From Parolsenella catena (GTDB lineage Bacteria > Actinomycetota > Coriobacteriia > Coriobacteriales > Atopobiaceae), in the NCBI RefSeq assembly GCF_003966955.1, contig NZ_AP019367.1, forward strand, positions 620,001 through 684,000: a DNA stretch of 64,000 bases, read 5' to 3'. The notes beneath the pieces were generated by a model, which saw only the letters and a list, made by a program, of their open reading frames with translations, was not told the origin of the DNA and searched no databases. Positions 32,601 through 39,180 of this stretch are shown in pieces. Within the stretch, counting starts at the first letter, position 1. Each line of letters begins with the position of its first letter. The position numbers were made by a program, and so were the translations under genes.

Positions 32601-33303
32601 CGCGGCGGAGGCTGGCGCCTCGTCTCTCGACGACGTGCTCGAGCTGCCCGCGTGCCTGCCCGTCTCGGAGGCGCAGAGAGCCCGCGCGGGCGTCGTGCCC
32701 GCCGGCGAGGCGCCTGCGGCCCCGAGCCCCCGCCGTGCCGAGACCGTGCTCGTCGACGACGACGGCGAGCCGGCCGATGCCGACGACGCTGACCGCGCCA
32801 CCTGCCTGGGCAGCGCGTTCCACGAGCTTGCGCGTCTCATGGTCGAGACGGGGCACGCGCCCGGTGAGCGGCGCGTCTCGGTCGTGGCCGCCTCCTACGG
32901 CGTCTCGCGCCGGGACCGCGCCCGCCTGGACGCCGCGCTCGCGCGCTGGGAGAGAAGCGACATCCGCTCCGAGGCCCTTTCCCATGCGTGCGTGCGCGCC
33001 GAGGTGCCGTTCTTCTGCGGCGTGAGCTCGCCGCTCGGGCATGACCTCGAGGGCGCCATCGACCTGCTCGCCACGGATGCGCCCGTGGCAAGGGAGGATG
33101 CCTCGGCGCTGCTCGTCGACTACAAGACGGGTGACCACGGCCTCACGCTTGGGCAGATTCGCGAGCGCCACGAGATGCAGGCGCGCTTCTACGCCTCCGT
33201 CCTGCGCCAGCAGGGCTGGCGCCACGTCACGTGCGCCTTCGTCTGCGTCGAGCTTTCCGATGAGCTCGGCCAGCCCGTCGTCACCCGCTACGAGTTTGGT
33301 TGA
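29671..33303 (+). CDS. addA: AddA-type UvrD-family helicase-nuclease
   Basis: 1210-residue motor and nuclease subunit. Walker A is AAGAGSGKTFTLTRRI (Lys55); the DEFQDTN Walker B is near residue 380; GDAQQAIYGFRGAD (motif III), TAHASKGLEFD (motif V) and LLYVALTRARE (motif VI) follow. The C-terminal nuclease domain has LLVDYKTGDHG (Asp1150, Lys1152) and the helix with HEMQARFYASVL. ATG 29671 overlaps the addB stop and has GAGAGGAGG upstream; a GTG 14 codons earlier lies within addB. Confidence 0.92.
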   Translation: MSDIKLSTAEGREEGTAQVPPEVAALLKGLLPEQRRIVTTLDRPVFVAAGAGSGKTFTLTRRIVWALCPGSGEGGRPFLDSLDQALVITFTEKAAGEIKERVRSALRQAGLGEEALKVDSAWVSTIHHMCARILRAHALDLGLDPEFAMIGEQEARLLRSQATEQALREQQGSAGLDALYAEFGTGTGSGRDGVPGLLATLISKAGSAERGLESLSFVEAGADVSGTMASLTLAYGALCACDLKHADELARVRGELARLEEFGQLPPSQRTPQAARELLGSIKGPDGRKWRAKNVKDLWAETKSSLEVARGEVDLACVMPLQEPLMALAGRVEQLYAAAKRSRGVLDNDDLLQLTARAFRERAGIADEYAHKFRLVMVDEFQDTNAQQVGMVKSLSGEGACHLTTVGDAQQAIYGFRGADVSVFEDRGEEVREAAKQGRAATVELAYNFRSDDAILRFVARACGSSGIVPRFMDLRPDPARKSDWPERRCPRVVVELTRAHRLGVRAVPKETRARLAAAQLADRLARIRDDVGVEPRRMAVLMRSLTQAPVYIDALRERGLESVVVGGSTFAQASEVRVVEALLRCLACPQDTKSGLFGVLESDMFELDGNDMLMLATRPQDVFDAPAKRRINVGVREGAPDFGNAAPSERLSHARRVITRAWDRVGKIPVADVLLMAIRESGWLLRLERGGVAGRAVAANVLAAVRHVRELSEPNQLDAILAADEFSRWLEAAKEGPASLSGEGLNAVSLMTAHASKGLEFDVVAVVGCCGSESSHKVGRLLSLRDGARELLSLAPAGFKVPDLGEDAPADARDCDSALEWRALMEQTRTDAESREDGRLLYVALTRARECVILCLSATEKKGGELSPVMTQQVAGALFGERPVAGEGSFGYGGRAEGLVRCVDASLLPDGSVEVEAGGTLDASALTPAPAAGEGAKETSREPFLVFDIDAETRAPLGGWRPRQDVFSYSSAHAALAAEAGASSLDDVLELPACLPVSEAQRARAGVVPAGEAPAAPSPRRAETVLVDDDGEPADADDADRATCLGSAFHELARLMVETGHAPGERRVSVVAASYGVSRRDRARLDAALARWERSDIRSEALSHACVRAEVPFFCGVSSPLGHDLEGAIDLLATDAPVAREDASALLVDYKTGDHGLTLGQIRERHEMQARFYASVLRQQGWRHVTCAFVCVELSDELGQPVVTRYEFG

Positions 33304-33345
33304 CGAGCGACAGCCCCTCGTCAACTCGTCTGAGGAGAGATGCAC

Positions 33346-34614
33346 ATGAGTCCCATCGAGCTGGTCTCAATCGTGGTGGCGGCCGTGGCCGTTGTCGTGG
33401 CCGCCGTGGCCGTCATGCGTGCGGGCGGGGCCGCGCCCGGCGCCCCCGCCGCCGTGGACGAGCAGACCCTCGCGTCGTACCTCGAGCGTACGAACGCCGA
33501 GGTCGCCTCGCTCAAGACGCAGCAGGCTGCCGACGCCGCGTCCACGAGGGCCTCCCTCGACGCGGCGGCCCGCAGCATCGAGCAGGCGGGAAACCGCGTG
33601 GACGGCATGCGCCGCGACGTCACCTCGCAGCTTGCCGCGAGCGCCCAGGCCACCACGCAGCACCTCCAGGGCCTCTCGCAAACCACGACCGAGCAGCTGC
33701 GCCTCATCCGGCAGGACACAAACCGCCAGCTCGACGAGATGCGCGCCACGGTGGACGACCGCCTCACCAAGACGCTCAACGACCGCCTGTCCTCCTCGTT
33801 CAAGCAGATCAACGAGAGCCTCGAGGCCGTCTATCGCGGCCTTGGCGACATGAAGTCGCTCGCCGCCGGCGTGGGAGACCTCAAGAAGACGCTCTCCAAC
33901 GTCAAGACGCGCGGCATCCTGGGAGAGGTGCAGCTCGGCGCCATCCTGTCCGAGGTCCTCGCGCCCGCCCAGTACGCCGAGAACGTCGCCACGAAGCCCG
34001 GCAGCGCGGACCGCGTCGAGTTTGCCGTAAAGCTGCCGGTCGAGGAGGGCGAGCCCGTGTGGCTGCCCATCGACGCCAAGTTCCCCGGCGACACCTACGC
34101 CCAGCTGCGTGACGCGCTCGACTCCGGCGACCGCGAGGCCATCGTCGCCGCGCGCAAGCAGCTCGAGACGCGCATCAAGGCAGAGGCCAGAGACATCTCC
34201 ACCAAGTACGTGAGCGTGCCGGCCACGACCAACTTCGGCATCATGTTCCTGCCGTTCGAGGGCCTGTATGCCGAGGTCGTGAGCATGCCCGGGCTCATCG
34301 AGTCGCTGCAGCGCGACTGGCACGTGAACGTGGCCGGCCCCTCCACCATGGCGGCGCTGCTCAGCAGCCTTGAGATGGCCTACCAGACGTTCAACCTGCA
34401 GCGCCGGACCGACGAGGTGCTGCGCGTGCTGCAGGCCGTGAAGGCCGAGCTGCCCAAGTACCAGGCCGAGCTGCGCCGCGCCAAGCAGCAGATCGACCTC
34501 GCCGGCCGCACGGTGGACGGCATCATCACGACGCGCACGAACGTCATGGAGCGCAAGCTCAAGGACATCTCCCTCAACGAGGACGAGACCCCCACCCTGG
34601 ACGGCGAGGAGTAA
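33346..34614 (+). CDS. rmuC: RmuC-family DNA recombination protein
   Basis: 422 residues. One N-terminal hydrophobic helix (about 5-26) is followed by a long coiled coil (about 40-190) and the RmuC nuclease-like domain (SNVKTRGILGEVQLGAIL, VWLPIDAKFPGD, IMFLPFEGLYAEV, VAGPSTMAALL). RmuC limits inversions at short inverted repeats in E. coli. It follows addA by 42 nt, probably in one transcript. ATG 33346 has GAGGAG 8 nt upstream; the ATG at 33340 is too close to it. Confidence 0.9.
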   Translation: MSPIELVSIVVAAVAVVVAAVAVMRAGGAAPGAPAAVDEQTLASYLERTNAEVASLKTQQAADAASTRASLDAAARSIEQAGNRVDGMRRDVTSQLAASAQATTQHLQGLSQTTTEQLRLIRQDTNRQLDEMRATVDDRLTKTLNDRLSSSFKQINESLEAVYRGLGDMKSLAAGVGDLKKTLSNVKTRGILGEVQLGAILSEVLAPAQYAENVATKPGSADRVEFAVKLPVEEGEPVWLPIDAKFPGDTYAQLRDALDSGDREAIVAARKQLETRIKAEARDISTKYVSVPATTNFGIMFLPFEGLYAEVVSMPGLIESLQRDWHVNVAGPSTMAALLSSLEMAYQTFNLQRRTDEVLRVLQAVKAELPKYQAELRRAKQQIDLAGRTVDGIITTRTNVMERKLKDISLNEDETPTLDGEE

Positions 34615-34625
34615 CCCCACTTCGC

Positions 34626-34702
34626 CGAGAATGAATATTGGGACATGGGCGCAATCGCCAACTGCGGTTTTGCTGCTTGGTTTGTCCCGATTTTCATTCT
34701 CG
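34626..34702. repeat. 77-bp inverted-repeat element, left copy
   Basis: 20-bp terminal inverted repeats (34626-34645 CGAGAATGAATATTGGGACA; 34683-34702) enclose a core with CGCAATCGCCAACTGCGG and TTTTGCTG. 67 of 77 positions agree with the right copy at 35803-35879, in the same orientation. No target-site duplication is evident. Confidence 0.85.
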
Positions 34703-34837
34703 CGGGGCAGTTGACGTGCCCGGGTATGGCGTGCCGTCTCTGTGGGTAGAAGGGGCGTACTGAGGACGAGCCATGAGGCCGTGGGCCGGCTCCCATCGAG
34801 ACCGTGTCCTCCCCGCGAGATCGCACGGAGGGCGGCC

Positions 34838-35788
34838 ATGGCAACCCGTATCCCCGCTTCAATTGCATCGACGCTGAAGACATGCGAGGAGAGGGGAGTC
34901 TTGCTCGCACGGGCAGACGTCGCGGATGCTCGGCCCCTCTCGAGGCTCGCGGTTGCCGGGCTTCTCGTGTCCCCTCATCCGGGGCTCTATGCTCGATCGG
35001 ACCTCTGGCGCGAGCTAACTCCCGACGCTCGCAACCTTTGTGTGGCGAAGACCCTTGCCGCGCTTCATCCTGCCTGGGTCTTCTCGCACCAGACGGCCGC
35101 GTTGTTTTACGGTCTGTCGGTCTCCTATTCCTGCCTTGGCAAGGTCCACTACACAACTCCGTGCAGGGCGGGCGGACAGGATAAGGGCTACACGTGCCAC
35201 CACCAGGCGAAGGCCGCCGAGTGGAGGATGATCGACGGCGTTAGGGTGAGCTCGTCGGAGCGAATGCTCTACGACTGCCTTCGGAGCCTCCCGTTCGCCG
35301 ATGCCCTTGTGATTGCGGATGGTGCCTTGCGAGAGGGTGTGTCCACGCGCGAGAAGCTCGAGCGCTACCTGGGCTGGCATGCGGGAGGGCGCGGCATTCG
35401 GTACGTTCGTCAGGTGCTCGAATCGGCGGATGGACGTGCCGAGAGCGGTGCCGAGTCCATAGCGCGGGCCACGGTCATCAGCCTGGGCGTTCCCATCTAC
35501 GATTTGCAGCTCGTGGTGGCAGACCTTGAGAGGCCCGGCAAGACGTATCGGCTGGACATCGTCCTGCGCCGTTCGGACGACACGCTTGTCGACCTTGAGG
35601 TCGATGGTCGCCAGAAGTACGAGCTGCTAAATGGTCCAGACGGTGCCGTGACCGCCATGATGGCCGAGCGCCAGCGTGAGGCCGCCATTACCGCGCACGG
35701 GATTCTCGTGGCGAGAATAGCAGCCGCAGACGCAGGCAACCGCCCCGTCATGGAGCGCAAGCTGCGTGCCTACGGCGTCATTCCCTAG
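34838..35788 (+). CDS. AbiEi-like/DUF559-like protein, orphan
   Basis: 316 residues. The N-terminal part resembles the AbiEi antitoxin winged helix (LLARADVADARPLSRLAVAG...GLYARSDLW), followed by the AbiEi-type core (HPAWVFSHQTAALFYGL, VSSSERMLYDCLRSL, ADGALREG). The C-terminus has a Vsr/DUF559-like nuclease pattern: YRLDIVL (Asp240) and DLEVDGRQKY (Glu254, Asp256). No AbiEii-type nucleotidyltransferase toxin is next to it. Base use looks somewhat less GC-rich than its neighbours. Two 77-bp repeat elements bracket the gene; the stop is 14 nt before the right one. ATG 34838 has CGGAGGG upstream. Function is unknown; an accessory defence role is a guess. Confidence 0.65.
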   Translation: MATRIPASIASTLKTCEERGVLLARADVADARPLSRLAVAGLLVSPHPGLYARSDLWRELTPDARNLCVAKTLAALHPAWVFSHQTAALFYGLSVSYSCLGKVHYTTPCRAGGQDKGYTCHHQAKAAEWRMIDGVRVSSSERMLYDCLRSLPFADALVIADGALREGVSTREKLERYLGWHAGGRGIRYVRQVLESADGRAESGAESIARATVISLGVPIYDLQLVVADLERPGKTYRLDIVLRRSDDTLVDLEVDGRQKYELLNGPDGAVTAMMAERQREAAITAHGILVARIAAADAGNRPVMERKLRAYGVIP

Positions 35789-35802
35789 CCTCTTGCGGTC
35801 GC

Positions 35803-35879
35803 CGAGAATGAAACTTGGGACAATTTCGCAATCGCCAACTGCGGTTTTGCTGACCGGTTTGTCCCGATATTCATTCTCG
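35803..35879. repeat. 77-bp inverted-repeat element, right copy
   Basis: 20-bp terminal repeats at 35803-35822 (CGAGAATGAAACTTGGGACA) and 35860-35879. The central 26 nt are identical to the left copy at 34626-34702. It ends 28 nt before the stop of the convergent DeoR gene. Confidence 0.85.
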
Positions 35880-35906
35880 GTGAGGACGACGGCGGGTGAC
35901 TCGCCG

Positions 35907-36662
35907 CTACAGGACGTCCACGCCCAGAGAGCGGACGCGGTCGACGCCGGTGCCCGTCTCGGCGTCACAGACGAGTGCGTCGAAGTCTGCGAGGCTCGCG
36001 AAGCGGTACGTGCCGAACGCACTGAACTTGGCGGACTCGCACAGCAGGTACGCCTGGCTCGCCCTCGCCATGGCGGCGGCCTTGAGCGCGCCGTCGTCGG
36101 CGTCGAACGTGCTGACCTCGCCCGTCTCGGCATCCATGCCGTACGCGCCCATGAACGCGGCGTCAAAGCGGAAGCGCCCCACCACGTCGAGCGCGATCGA
36201 GCCCGTGAGGCCCGAGAGGTCGGCCCGCATCGTGCCACCGCAGCACAGCGTGGTGACGCCGGGCGCGCCGGCCAGCGCCACGAGCACGTCGACCATGGGC
36301 GTCACGACCGTGCACCCCACGCCCGAGCTGGCGATAAGGCGGGCGAGCTGGACGCACGTGCTCGACATGTCGAGGTAGACGGTCTGGCCGGGCCCTACGA
36401 GCGGCAGCGCCTTGCACGCGATGGCGAGCTTCTCGCCGGCGTGCTGGTCGATGCGGGCGCTCATGGGCCGCTCGCGCACGTTCTCCACGCGCGTGGCCCC
36501 GCCGTAGACCTTCTGGCAACGGCCCTCCTCGGCAAGCTGCTTGAGGTCGCGGCGCATGAGGTCCTCCGTGACGCCGAAGCGCCTCGCAAGCTCCGAGACG
36601 GTGACGCGGCCCGTCTCGTCGATGATGCGCGCAACCTGCGCGCGGCGCTCCTCTGGAAACAT
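35907..36662 (-). CDS. DeoR-family regulator next to the glycyl radical enzyme
   Basis: 251 residues. N-terminal DeoR helix-turn-helix (MFPEERRAQVARIIDETGRVTVSELARRFGVTEDLMRRDLKQL) and C-terminal sugar-isomerase-like effector domain (KVYGGA, YLDMSSTCVQLARLI, GGTMRADLSGLTGSIAL, DAAFMGAYGMD). DeoR regulators usually sense phosphorylated sugars, a hint about the pathway next door. It is divergent from the glycyl radical enzyme gene with about 200 nt between. The ATG at 36662 has CAAGGAGGA upstream on the minus strand. Confidence 0.87.
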   Translation of the reverse strand: MFPEERRAQVARIIDETGRVTVSELARRFGVTEDLMRRDLKQLAEEGRCQKVYGGATRVENVRERPMSARIDQHAGEKLAIACKALPLVGPGQTVYLDMSSTCVQLARLIASSGVGCTVVTPMVDVLVALAGAPGVTTLCCGGTMRADLSGLTGSIALDVVGRFRFDAAFMGAYGMDAETGEVSTFDADDGALKAAAMARASQAYLLCESAKFSAFGTYRFASLADFDALVCDAETGTGVDRVRSLGVDVL

Positions 36663-36700
36663 CGATCCTCCTTGGCGGTCGCTCCTTGTCCGTAAGTATA

Positions 36701-36708
36701 CCAATTGG
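36701..36708. promoter_or_regulatory. CCAATTGG palindrome 1
   Basis: An 8-bp perfect palindrome 39 nt upstream of the DeoR start, repeated at 36784. Candidate operator pair for the divergent DeoR/GRE promoters. Confidence 0.4.
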
Positions 36709-36783
36709 GGATAAATACGCATAACTACGCCGAGAATCGCGCCTAACGGCTTGCAAACTAGGAGAAAACAGACTACTTTGGGG

Positions 36784-36791
36784 CCAATTGG
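36784..36791. promoter_or_regulatory. CCAATTGG palindrome 2
   Basis: Second CCAATTGG, 83 bp from the first and 71 nt before the glycyl radical enzyme start. Confidence 0.4.
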
Positions 36792-36828
36792 GAGGGCGCC
36801 GCGCCAACCGGGAAGGTGCCACGCCAAC
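36791..36828. repeat. 20-bp direct repeat upstream of the glycyl radical enzyme gene
   Basis: GGAGGGCGCCGCGCCAAC and GGAAGGTGCCACGCCAAC lie in tandem with a 20-bp period (36791 and 36811). They follow the second CCAATTGG and may be further regulator contacts. Confidence 0.5.
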
Positions 36829-36861
36829 TCAGCCCCACAACCACGTCTGATGGGAGAGCCC

Positions 36862-39180
36862 ATGCTCACGGACCGCATGCAAGCGATGAAGGACAAGATC
36901 TTCTCGACCCCGCGCGTCATCTCGCTCGAGCGCGCGCGACTCTACACCCAGAGCTGGAGGCAGACGGAGGGGCAGCCCGTCGTCGTCCGTCGCGCCCGAG
37001 CCGTGGCAAGCGTGCTTGCCGGCCACAGGATCGTCATCGACGACACGGACCTCATCGTGGGCAACCGCAGCGAGACCCCGCGCGCCGGCGTCGTGTCACC
37101 CGAGATGAGCCCATACTGGATTGCCGAGGAGCTCGACGCGTTCCCCACGCGACCCCAGGACCCCTTCGACATCTCCGAGCGGGACAAGGCGGAGCTTCGC
37201 GAGGAGCTGCTGCCCTACTGGAGCGGGCGTTCGCTCAACGACTGGTATCGCGCCCACCTCGATGCGGACGTGGCGGCGGCCGAGGCGGACAAGGTCTTCT
37301 CCGTGGCGCAGACTGACAAGGGCCAGGGCCACATCATCTGCGACTTCCCGCTCGTGCTCGCCTGCGGCTACGGCACCATCCTCGAGCGCGCCCGCGCACG
37401 TGCCGCCGCAGAGCCCGACAACGCCTTCCTGAGCGCGGCCGTCATCTCGCTCGAGGCCATGATTGCCTACATCGGCCGCTACGAGCGCGCCGCTCGCGAG
37501 CTCATCGTGCGCTCGACGCCCGAGCGTGCCGCCGAGCTCGAGCGCATTGCCGGCATTCTCGCGCACATCGCCACCGAGCCCGCCCGCGACCTCTACGACG
37601 CCATCCAGCTCGTGTGGCTCACGGAGGTCGCCCTCATGCACGAGAGCAACGCCTCGTCGCTGTCGCTGGGCCGCGTCGACCAGTACTTGTGGCCCTACTT
37701 TGAGGCGAGCATGGCAGCCGGCGAGAGCCCCGAGGCCATCCGCGAGCTCATCCAGTGCTTCTACCTCAAGCTCAATACGATCATCGCCGTGCGATCCACG
37801 GAGAGCGCCCGCTTCTTCGCGGGCTTCCCCATCGGCTTCAACCTCGTGGTCGGCGGCGTGGACGAGACGGGCGCGGACGCCACGAACGAGCTGAGCCTGC
37901 TGCTGCTCGACGTCCAGCGCGACACCCGCCTGCCGCAGCCCAACCTGTCCATGCGCGTGCATGCCGGCACGCCGGACGTGCTGCTCCGCGAGGCCTGCGA
38001 GATCATCCGCCTGGGAGACGGCCTGCCGCAGCTGTTCAACGACGAGGTCAACGTCCGCGCGTTCATGAACCGCGGCGTGTCCGAGGCCGACGCGCGCGAC
38101 TACGCCGTCGTGGGCTGCGTGGAGCTGTCCATCCCGGGGTGCATGTATGGCCTGCACGACATCTCGATGTTCAACATGCTCCGTTGCCTCGAGCTTGCGC
38201 TGGCCGCCCACCCGCAGGGCTTTGCGAACTACGCCGAGCTCGAGCGTGCGGTGGAGGCCACGATATCCCGCTACGTCTCGCTCATGGTGCGCGGCTGCGA
38301 CACGTGTGACCTCGCACATCGCGTGACCTCGCCCACGCCGCTGCTGTCGTGCCTCGTCGCCGACTGCCTCGCGCAGGGCAAGGACGTCACGCAGGGAGGG
38401 GCGCGCTACAACCCCTCGGGCGTGCAGGGCGTGGGCACGGCAAACCTCGCCGACTCGCTCGTGACCCTGCGCCGCGGCGTGCTGGGAGACGACGGGCGTG
38501 GTGGTCACGTGACGCCCCTCGCGAGCTGGGAGCGGCTCAAGGGGGCGCTTGGCCGCGACTGGTCGGGCGAGGGCGACGAGCTGCTGCGCCAGACGATTCT
38601 CAATCGCATGCCCAAGTACGGAAACGACGTGGACGAGGTCGACCTCCTCGGCCGGCACTTCCTCGAGTTCTACGCCCATGAGGTCGAGCGCTACGAGAAC
38701 GTGCGAGGCGGGCACTTCCAGCCGGGCAGCTACACGGTCTCGGCGCACGTGCCGCTGGGGGCCGCCTGCGGCGCCACGCCTGACGGCCGCCATGCTCACG
38801 AGCAACTCGCCGACGGCGGCCTGTCGCCCATGACGGGCAGGGACGCCCACGGCCCTACGGCGAGCCTCATGAGCGTGAGCAAGCTCAACAACGTGCTCGA
38901 GAGCAACGGCAGCCTGCTCAACGTCAAGTTCTCGCCGTCTGCCCTGGCGGGCGAGGCGGGCCTGGCAAAGCTCATGGGCTACGTCAGGGCCTTCTCGCGC
39001 CTGGGGATCCAGCACATCCAGTTCAACGTCGTGGACCGCGCTACGCTCATCGACGCGCAGGAGCATCCCGAGCGCCATCGTGACCTCGTCGTGCGCGTGG
39101 CCGGCTACAGCGCGTTGTTCGTCGAGCTGTCGCGCACGCTGCAAGACGACATCATCAACAGGACCGAGCATGTGCTGTAG
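36862..39180 (+). CDS. Glycyl radical enzyme of the dehydratase/PflD-YbiW type
   Basis: 772 residues, PFL-like fold. The radical glycine is Gly748 in VRVAGYSALF and the thiyl cysteine is Cys419 in VVGCVELS, with Glu421 two residues on. A single cysteine followed by Val-Glu is the pattern of dehydratase/lyase-type enzymes; true pyruvate formate-lyase has two adjacent cysteines. The following IPGCMYGLHDISMFNM looks closest to E. coli PflD/YbiW-type proteins, from memory. No microcompartment, propanediol, choline or hydroxyproline genes are near, so the substrate is not assignable. The protein is active only without oxygen. ATG 36862 has GGGAG 8 nt upstream. The activase gene overlaps the 3' end. 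Confidence 0.87.
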   Translation: MLTDRMQAMKDKIFSTPRVISLERARLYTQSWRQTEGQPVVVRRARAVASVLAGHRIVIDDTDLIVGNRSETPRAGVVSPEMSPYWIAEELDAFPTRPQDPFDISERDKAELREELLPYWSGRSLNDWYRAHLDADVAAAEADKVFSVAQTDKGQGHIICDFPLVLACGYGTILERARARAAAEPDNAFLSAAVISLEAMIAYIGRYERAARELIVRSTPERAAELERIAGILAHIATEPARDLYDAIQLVWLTEVALMHESNASSLSLGRVDQYLWPYFEASMAAGESPEAIRELIQCFYLKLNTIIAVRSTESARFFAGFPIGFNLVVGGVDETGADATNELSLLLLDVQRDTRLPQPNLSMRVHAGTPDVLLREACEIIRLGDGLPQLFNDEVNVRAFMNRGVSEADARDYAVVGCVELSIPGCMYGLHDISMFNMLRCLELALAAHPQGFANYAELERAVEATISRYVSLMVRGCDTCDLAHRVTSPTPLLSCLVADCLAQGKDVTQGGARYNPSGVQGVGTANLADSLVTLRRGVLGDDGRGGHVTPLASWERLKGALGRDWSGEGDELLRQTILNRMPKYGNDVDEVDLLGRHFLEFYAHEVERYENVRGGHFQPGSYTVSAHVPLGAACGATPDGRHAHEQLADGGLSPMTGRDAHGPTASLMSVSKLNNVLESNGSLLNVKFSPSALAGEAGLAKLMGYVRAFSRLGIQHIQFNVVDRATLIDAQEHPERHRDLVVRVAGYSALFVELSRTLQDDIINRTEHVL

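Follow-up and report, generated by a model that had tools for sequence, protein, structure and literature searches.

The known bacterial transposable elements rely on a handful of enzyme classes. Among described systems, the REPIN-RAYT arrangement comes closest to the locus reported here: a single-copy, vertically inherited gene sits at a fixed locus among dispersed palindromic repeats that are specific to the protein and mostly intergenic (PMC3116915). A second point of comparison is provided by the AbiEi antitoxins and Rv2827c, which bind 23-bp inverted repeats (PMC7319586). We found no prior link of AbiEi, DUF559 or Vsr proteins with palindromes or REPs in the open-licence papers that were searched. 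The window analysed here is a stretch of 64,000 nucleotides from Parolsenella catena (contig NZ_AP019367.1, positions 620,001 to 684,000), in which the gene for a predicted DNA-binding nuclease lies between two palindromic elements (Table 1).

Table 1. Features of the nuclease gene and its flanking elements (window coordinates)
Feature	Position	Strand	Remarks
Palindromic element, copy 1	34626..34702	+	77 bp, 20-bp inverted arms; starts after rmuC stop codon
Unit (gene and one element), 1177 bp	34703..35879	+	Present here; absent from the congener's orthologous locus
Predicted winged-helix and PD-(D/E)xK nuclease gene	34838..35788	+	316 aa from ATG 34838
Predicted N-terminal winged-helix part of AbiEi-like portion, residues 1-60	34838..35017	+	AF2 secondary structure; Foldseek Rv2827c; PADLOC AbiEi
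Predicted C-terminal nuclease-fold domain	35432..35785	+	Conservation and fold
Palindromic element, copy 2	35803..35879	+	67/77 identical to copy 1; starts after nuclease gene stop codon

The locus and its filled and empty sites

An earlier note on this DNA had described two near-identical inverted-repeat elements in the same orientation with one gene between them, and this arrangement was reproduced in full. The copies are spaced 1177 bp apart, align with 88% identity over 81 bp and, by eye, have an identical 26-nt core; the 20-bp arms of copy 1 are 90% complementary, and folding z-scores of the elements range from -4.8 to -7.1 relative to shuffled sequence. Each element starts 8-15 bp after the preceding stop codon (rmuC, 34614; nuclease gene, 35788). 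An alternative GTG start at 34742 would give a 348-aa product of the nuclease gene. When the whole 1.8-Mb genome was searched, two copies of the element were found, both flanking the gene; a repeat unrelated to the gene was not seen. The neighbours are rmuC upstream and deoR downstream, which bears out the reported lack of an adjacent toxin. The proximity of addAB-rmuC, to which the note had attached some meaning, is incidental: homologs adjoin unrelated genes at other loci.

At the orthologous rmuC/deoR site of a congener (G059) there is one element and no gene, the difference being 1177 bp inside a patch of about 97% identity. Over 80 bp this single copy is identical to copy 1. The congener, which lacks the window gene at rmuC/deoR, carries five solo copies of the 77-bp element, and the window genome holds the flanking pair alone. 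We note that the rmuC-deoR segment (window 33300-37000) matches the congener at about 97% within a wider region of about 85-89% identity, indicating a recent recombination patch. Selection on copy 1 was considered from its identity with the congener and rejected, the flanks being also about 97% identical.

Empty one-element sites are present in a second genus as well, at a locus that we term Collinsella-type. Seven genomes have the gene there and eight have the empty site. Arrays of 47-bp units with a 61-62 bp period lie on both sides of the filled sites, one or two of the 47-bp palindromic units remain at the empty sites, and the junction between the two states falls inside the element. These arrays (L139-L142, L282) are CRISPR-like in their regularity, and their period corresponds to about six DNA helical turns. 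Filled and empty states are scattered over the tree of the flanks, with six changes, of which at least three are forced by supported branches. The gene type of this locus is single-copy and was always there wherever the flank shared its contig. Thus the gene type stays single-copy at a fixed locus, where it is gained or lost; the palindromes disperse. Gene presence therefore differs among relatives, and fixation in all of them, the outcome that would have spoken against the earlier proposal, was not seen.

We attribute presence or absence of the gene to recombination between the flanking copies, which gives loss or exchange. The earlier suggestion of a mobile or exchangeable cassette holds to this extent; hopping of the gene between loci was dropped, since each gene type is single-copy and at one locus. 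A homing-endonuclease cassette, in which the one-element empty site is cut and the gene copied in by repair from a filled allele, would also leave a conserved locus with filled and empty alleles scattered on the flank tree, and the nuclease domain has Foldseek similarity to the homing endonuclease I-Bth0305I. Filled sites, however, have intact elements on both sides, so that a target within the element would not be destroyed; the flank tree is fitted equally well by loss plus recombination, and homing alone leaves the scattered solo elements unexplained. We therefore consider homing highly improbable.

The protein and its bracketed homologs

The AlphaFold model of the window protein (pLDDT 93.3) has as its best solved-structure match Rv2827c (1zel), over the whole length (Foldseek E 3.9e-4, prob 1.00). 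Together with a PADLOC match to the AbiEi profile (E=2.6e-10, residues 31-193), this backs the AbiEi-like part proposed from the sequence. The C-terminal domain resembles XisH, Card1, I-Bth0305I, TnsA and DUF559-type structures, its Foldseek neighbours (3hrl, 3r3p, 2okf, 6xl1 and 2inb) having prob 0.89-0.99 and none an E below 0.001. E202, E206, S207, Q224, D240, E254, D256, G257, K260 and R280 are invariant in 49 homologs. Our assignment relies on the invariance of D240, E254, D256 and K260 along with the fold matches: the domain is predicted to adopt a PD-(D/E)xK nuclease fold, none of the matches singling out a subfamily. A nuclease end had been anticipated and stands; the Vsr/DUF559 label is reasonable, though as one among several similar PD-(D/E)xK families it is no unique match. 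In Pfam the window protein has no match, HUH Y1 (PF01797) included, and AbiEi_4 was alone in matching the family, in two of the 49 homologs. The search for an AbiEii/DUF1814 toxin partner was negative at all seven loci considered (the window locus, and 10 neighbours at six further loci).

The window genome encodes two paralogs, 41% and 33% identical to the window gene product; within-genome paralogs generally show 33-57% identity. Genome contigs were searched with an alignment as query, a single-protein query having given no matches. Of 140 genomes in the taxonomic family, 92 have homologs; for the class the figure is 122 of 298, strong matches being confined to the same order; named records include Olsenella, Collinsella, Atopobium, Gordonibacter, Enorma and Thermophilibacter. 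This is apparently a large, undescribed family of gut and oral bacteria.

A repeat is present on both flanks of 78 of 114 non-redundant homologs, 73 of them as direct copies. The corresponding figure for control genes is 3 of 318 (0/100 for other genes on the same contigs, 3/218 in a second set; Fisher p ~ 2e-53), and these controls rule out chance as the source of the bracketing. The view that gene and repeats belong together is upheld accordingly. Of the 73 direct flank repeats, 58 are palindromic, a property shown by 9% of random 90-mers. The palindrome sequence differs lineage by lineage, and the downstream copy starts a median of 35 bp past the stop codon. About a third of the homologs have no flank repeat. 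Two of the more distant actinobacterial homologs (L267, L273) are bracketed and others are not. The three bracketed control genes (L230:2415-3480, L190:2963-3686 and L184:2071-3400) may be passenger genes or may lie next to element arrays.

Pairing, symmetry and dispersal of the palindromes

Protein and element similarity were compared in bins of identity. Protein pairs had an element in common in 12 of 16 cases at 80% identity or more, in 8 of 19 at 60-80% and in 0 of 1190 below 60%, so that 20 of the 35 pairs at or above 60% share their element. A rank correlation over all pairs was null because both similarities saturate. When 12 elements were searched against 12 genomes, all matches among those listed were in the element's own genome, even with the congener included. 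One paralog in the window genome (L004, family 2) has its own 69-bp palindrome, with about eight solo copies there. We consider it very probable that gene and palindrome are a functional pair.

The outer 12-13 bp hardly vary within the 69-bp family, whereas the centre does; total length is almost constant. Its arms covary (17 doubly changed cells versus 8.6 in shuffled data; 0/500 shuffles), and symmetric substitutions are seen by eye in the families of two further genomes (G341 and G020). From the sequences, such covariation would be compatible with a dimer on two inverted half-sites or with an extruded hairpin. Rfam gave no match. In the congener G059, the ortholog of the family-2 gene L004 (L077:3141-4092) is frameshifted around codon 235. 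The palindrome that follows this ortholog belongs to a variant type, its arms being CGCGAGTGTAG...CTACACTCGCG. This subfamily (L070 right flank, L077, L092) has the inner bases GGTCACTAT in common with the 69-bp family and may represent a shifted specificity of the same system. A pairing of the frameshifted gene with decayed elements was unsupported, element identity in the genus being 0.71 where the family-2 gene is frameshifted versus 0.72, a comparison that gives no sign of current activity.

Arm covariation would equally be seen at dimer sites if the elements were duplicated AbiEi-type operators, the protein being an autoregulator at its own gene, the scattered copies its regulon sites, and the nuclease serving another task (DNA repair or defence). 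AbiEi-family proteins bind 23-bp inverted repeats at their own promoters, spaced by 3 or 13 bp (PMC7319586); a 23+13+23 layout amounts to 59 bp, the length of the G341 element, and both the upstream copy and the arm symmetry would be explained. The downstream copy, typically no more than 35 bp from the stop codon, is however in an unexpected place for an operator. Moreover, copies are near-identical over 47-140 bp, the arrays have their regular 61-62 bp period, and dispersal and presence or absence at orthologous sites of congeners are left unexplained. We judge operators unlikely as the whole account; the flanking copies could in part act as such.

Solo copies were located in the own genome for at least 11 of the 12 elements searched in 12 genomes. 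With strands merged, solo counts are at least 15 in G341, at least 7 and at least 4 for two families in G020, and at least 5 in each of G058 and G317; cognate palindromes range from at least 3 to at least 15 copies per genome. Between two congeners many solo elements at intergenic sites are species-specific and some are shared. Elements missing at the orthologous site were seen at five pairs of loci (L065/L089, L072/L093, L066/L090, L076/L096 and L048/L095), and with one genome per species this turnover is between species, not strains. The tRNA-diacylglycerol kinase intergenic region is occupied by different families in the two species, a 69-bp element of family 2 in the window genome (L069:1528-1596) and a 77-bp element of family 1 in the congener (L049:5335-5414). 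No target-site duplication was detected at 33 solo elements, the shared end words being no longer than in shuffled sequence. Two solo elements of G341, separated by 1.8 kb (L239:3362-5190), enclose what by eye is a LuxR-like regulator gene, there by chance or as a passenger.

The repeats might instead be MITE- or REP-like and moved by an unrelated transposase such as an HUH Y1 enzyme, the nuclease being a defence gene that became trapped between two copies and is exchanged through homologous recombination. Y1 transposases are indeed present in 9 of the 12 genomes tested, including that of the window, and recombination between direct copies accounts for presence or absence of the gene. Three genomes with dispersed elements nevertheless lack Y1, the transposase class searched, and HUH transposases are therefore not required. 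Bracketing is very rare among control genes from the same contigs, and each protein type has its own palindrome; both count against this account, which appears decidedly unlikely. Of the Y1 proteins in the window genome (G000:C1 at 123848, 1230614 and 473524), two are IS200-like with equal scores and one is of RAYT length (257 aa); the latter is near none of the palindromes described.

A proposed nuclease-palindrome system and its relation to known systems

The reading we favour, and hold to be reasonably likely, is a two-component system in which the nuclease spreads its elements, REPIN-RAYT-like and built on an unrelated enzyme. Its components would be a single-copy gene for a DNA-binding nuclease and a private family of short palindromic elements. 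By analogy with AbiEi and Rv2827c, the winged-helix part would bind the two inverted half-sites of the element, and the nuclease part would cut or nick the element DNA, perhaps as an extruded hairpin. Further element copies, chiefly intergenic, could then be seeded by copying or repair after the cut. The gene would be deleted when its two flanking copies recombine, one element staying behind, and could be restored through homologous exchange spanning the flanks. Against this reading stand the homologs, about a third, that have no flank repeat, the absence of target-site duplications, and the window family, whose solo copies are confined to a congener without the gene.

Whether this amounts to a new class of mobile DNA we regard as evenly balanced. 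In such a class, a nuclease of restriction-endonuclease fold, joined to a DNA-binding part of AbiEi type, would recognise and propagate its private palindrome, with several pairs per genome co-diverging across an order of Actinobacteria. Joined to that reading, and given the same even chance, is the proposal that the enzyme is none of DDE, HUH, tyrosine, serine or Cas1. If true, the REPIN-RAYT way of life would have been invented independently on a winged-helix nuclease, and a function would be provided for a Pfam-less protein family that is easily filed as orphan AbiEi antitoxins. Such a system would also account for the palindromic repeats found scattered through common genera of the gut and mouth, Olsenella and Collinsella among them. 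With many natural protein-palindrome pairs available, recognition and mechanism can be tested directly.

Several known systems share single features with this family. As in MITEs of DDE insertion sequences, the palindromes are short and non-autonomous and turn over between species; unlike MITEs, they show no target-site duplication here, and the associated gene is single-copy and not a transposase. With homing endonuclease genes the family shares a nuclease gene that is present or absent at a fixed site. Its predicted C-terminal fold is that of Vsr/DUF559/I-Bth0305I, XisH, Card1 and TnsA, from which, as from other PD-(D/E)xK proteins, it differs in being fused to an AbiEi-like winged helix and paired with palindromes. 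AbiEi antitoxins and Rv2827c (MenA4), whose known activity is inverted-repeat binding, are related through the whole-length 1zel match and the AbiEi profile matches; the new family, however, has an invariant nuclease-type active site and dispersed repeats, also on both sides of the gene, and differs from AbiE type IV toxin-antitoxin systems in having no AbiEii/DUF1814 partner at the seven loci.

The likeness to REPIN-RAYT extends to the gene lying beside cognate palindromic repeats (78/114 homologs), to the dispersal of these repeats in their own genome (at least 11/12 elements; for the window element, solo copies in the congener), and to a single-copy, non-hopping gene whose palindromes disperse, unlike insertion sequences. 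The differences lie in the enzyme and in the repeat. RAYTs are HUH Y1 proteins (PF01797), whereas the new family combines a predicted winged helix and PD-(D/E)xK domain with no Y1 match; REPINs are paired short REPs, whereas each new element consists of one 47-77 bp palindrome or of an array.
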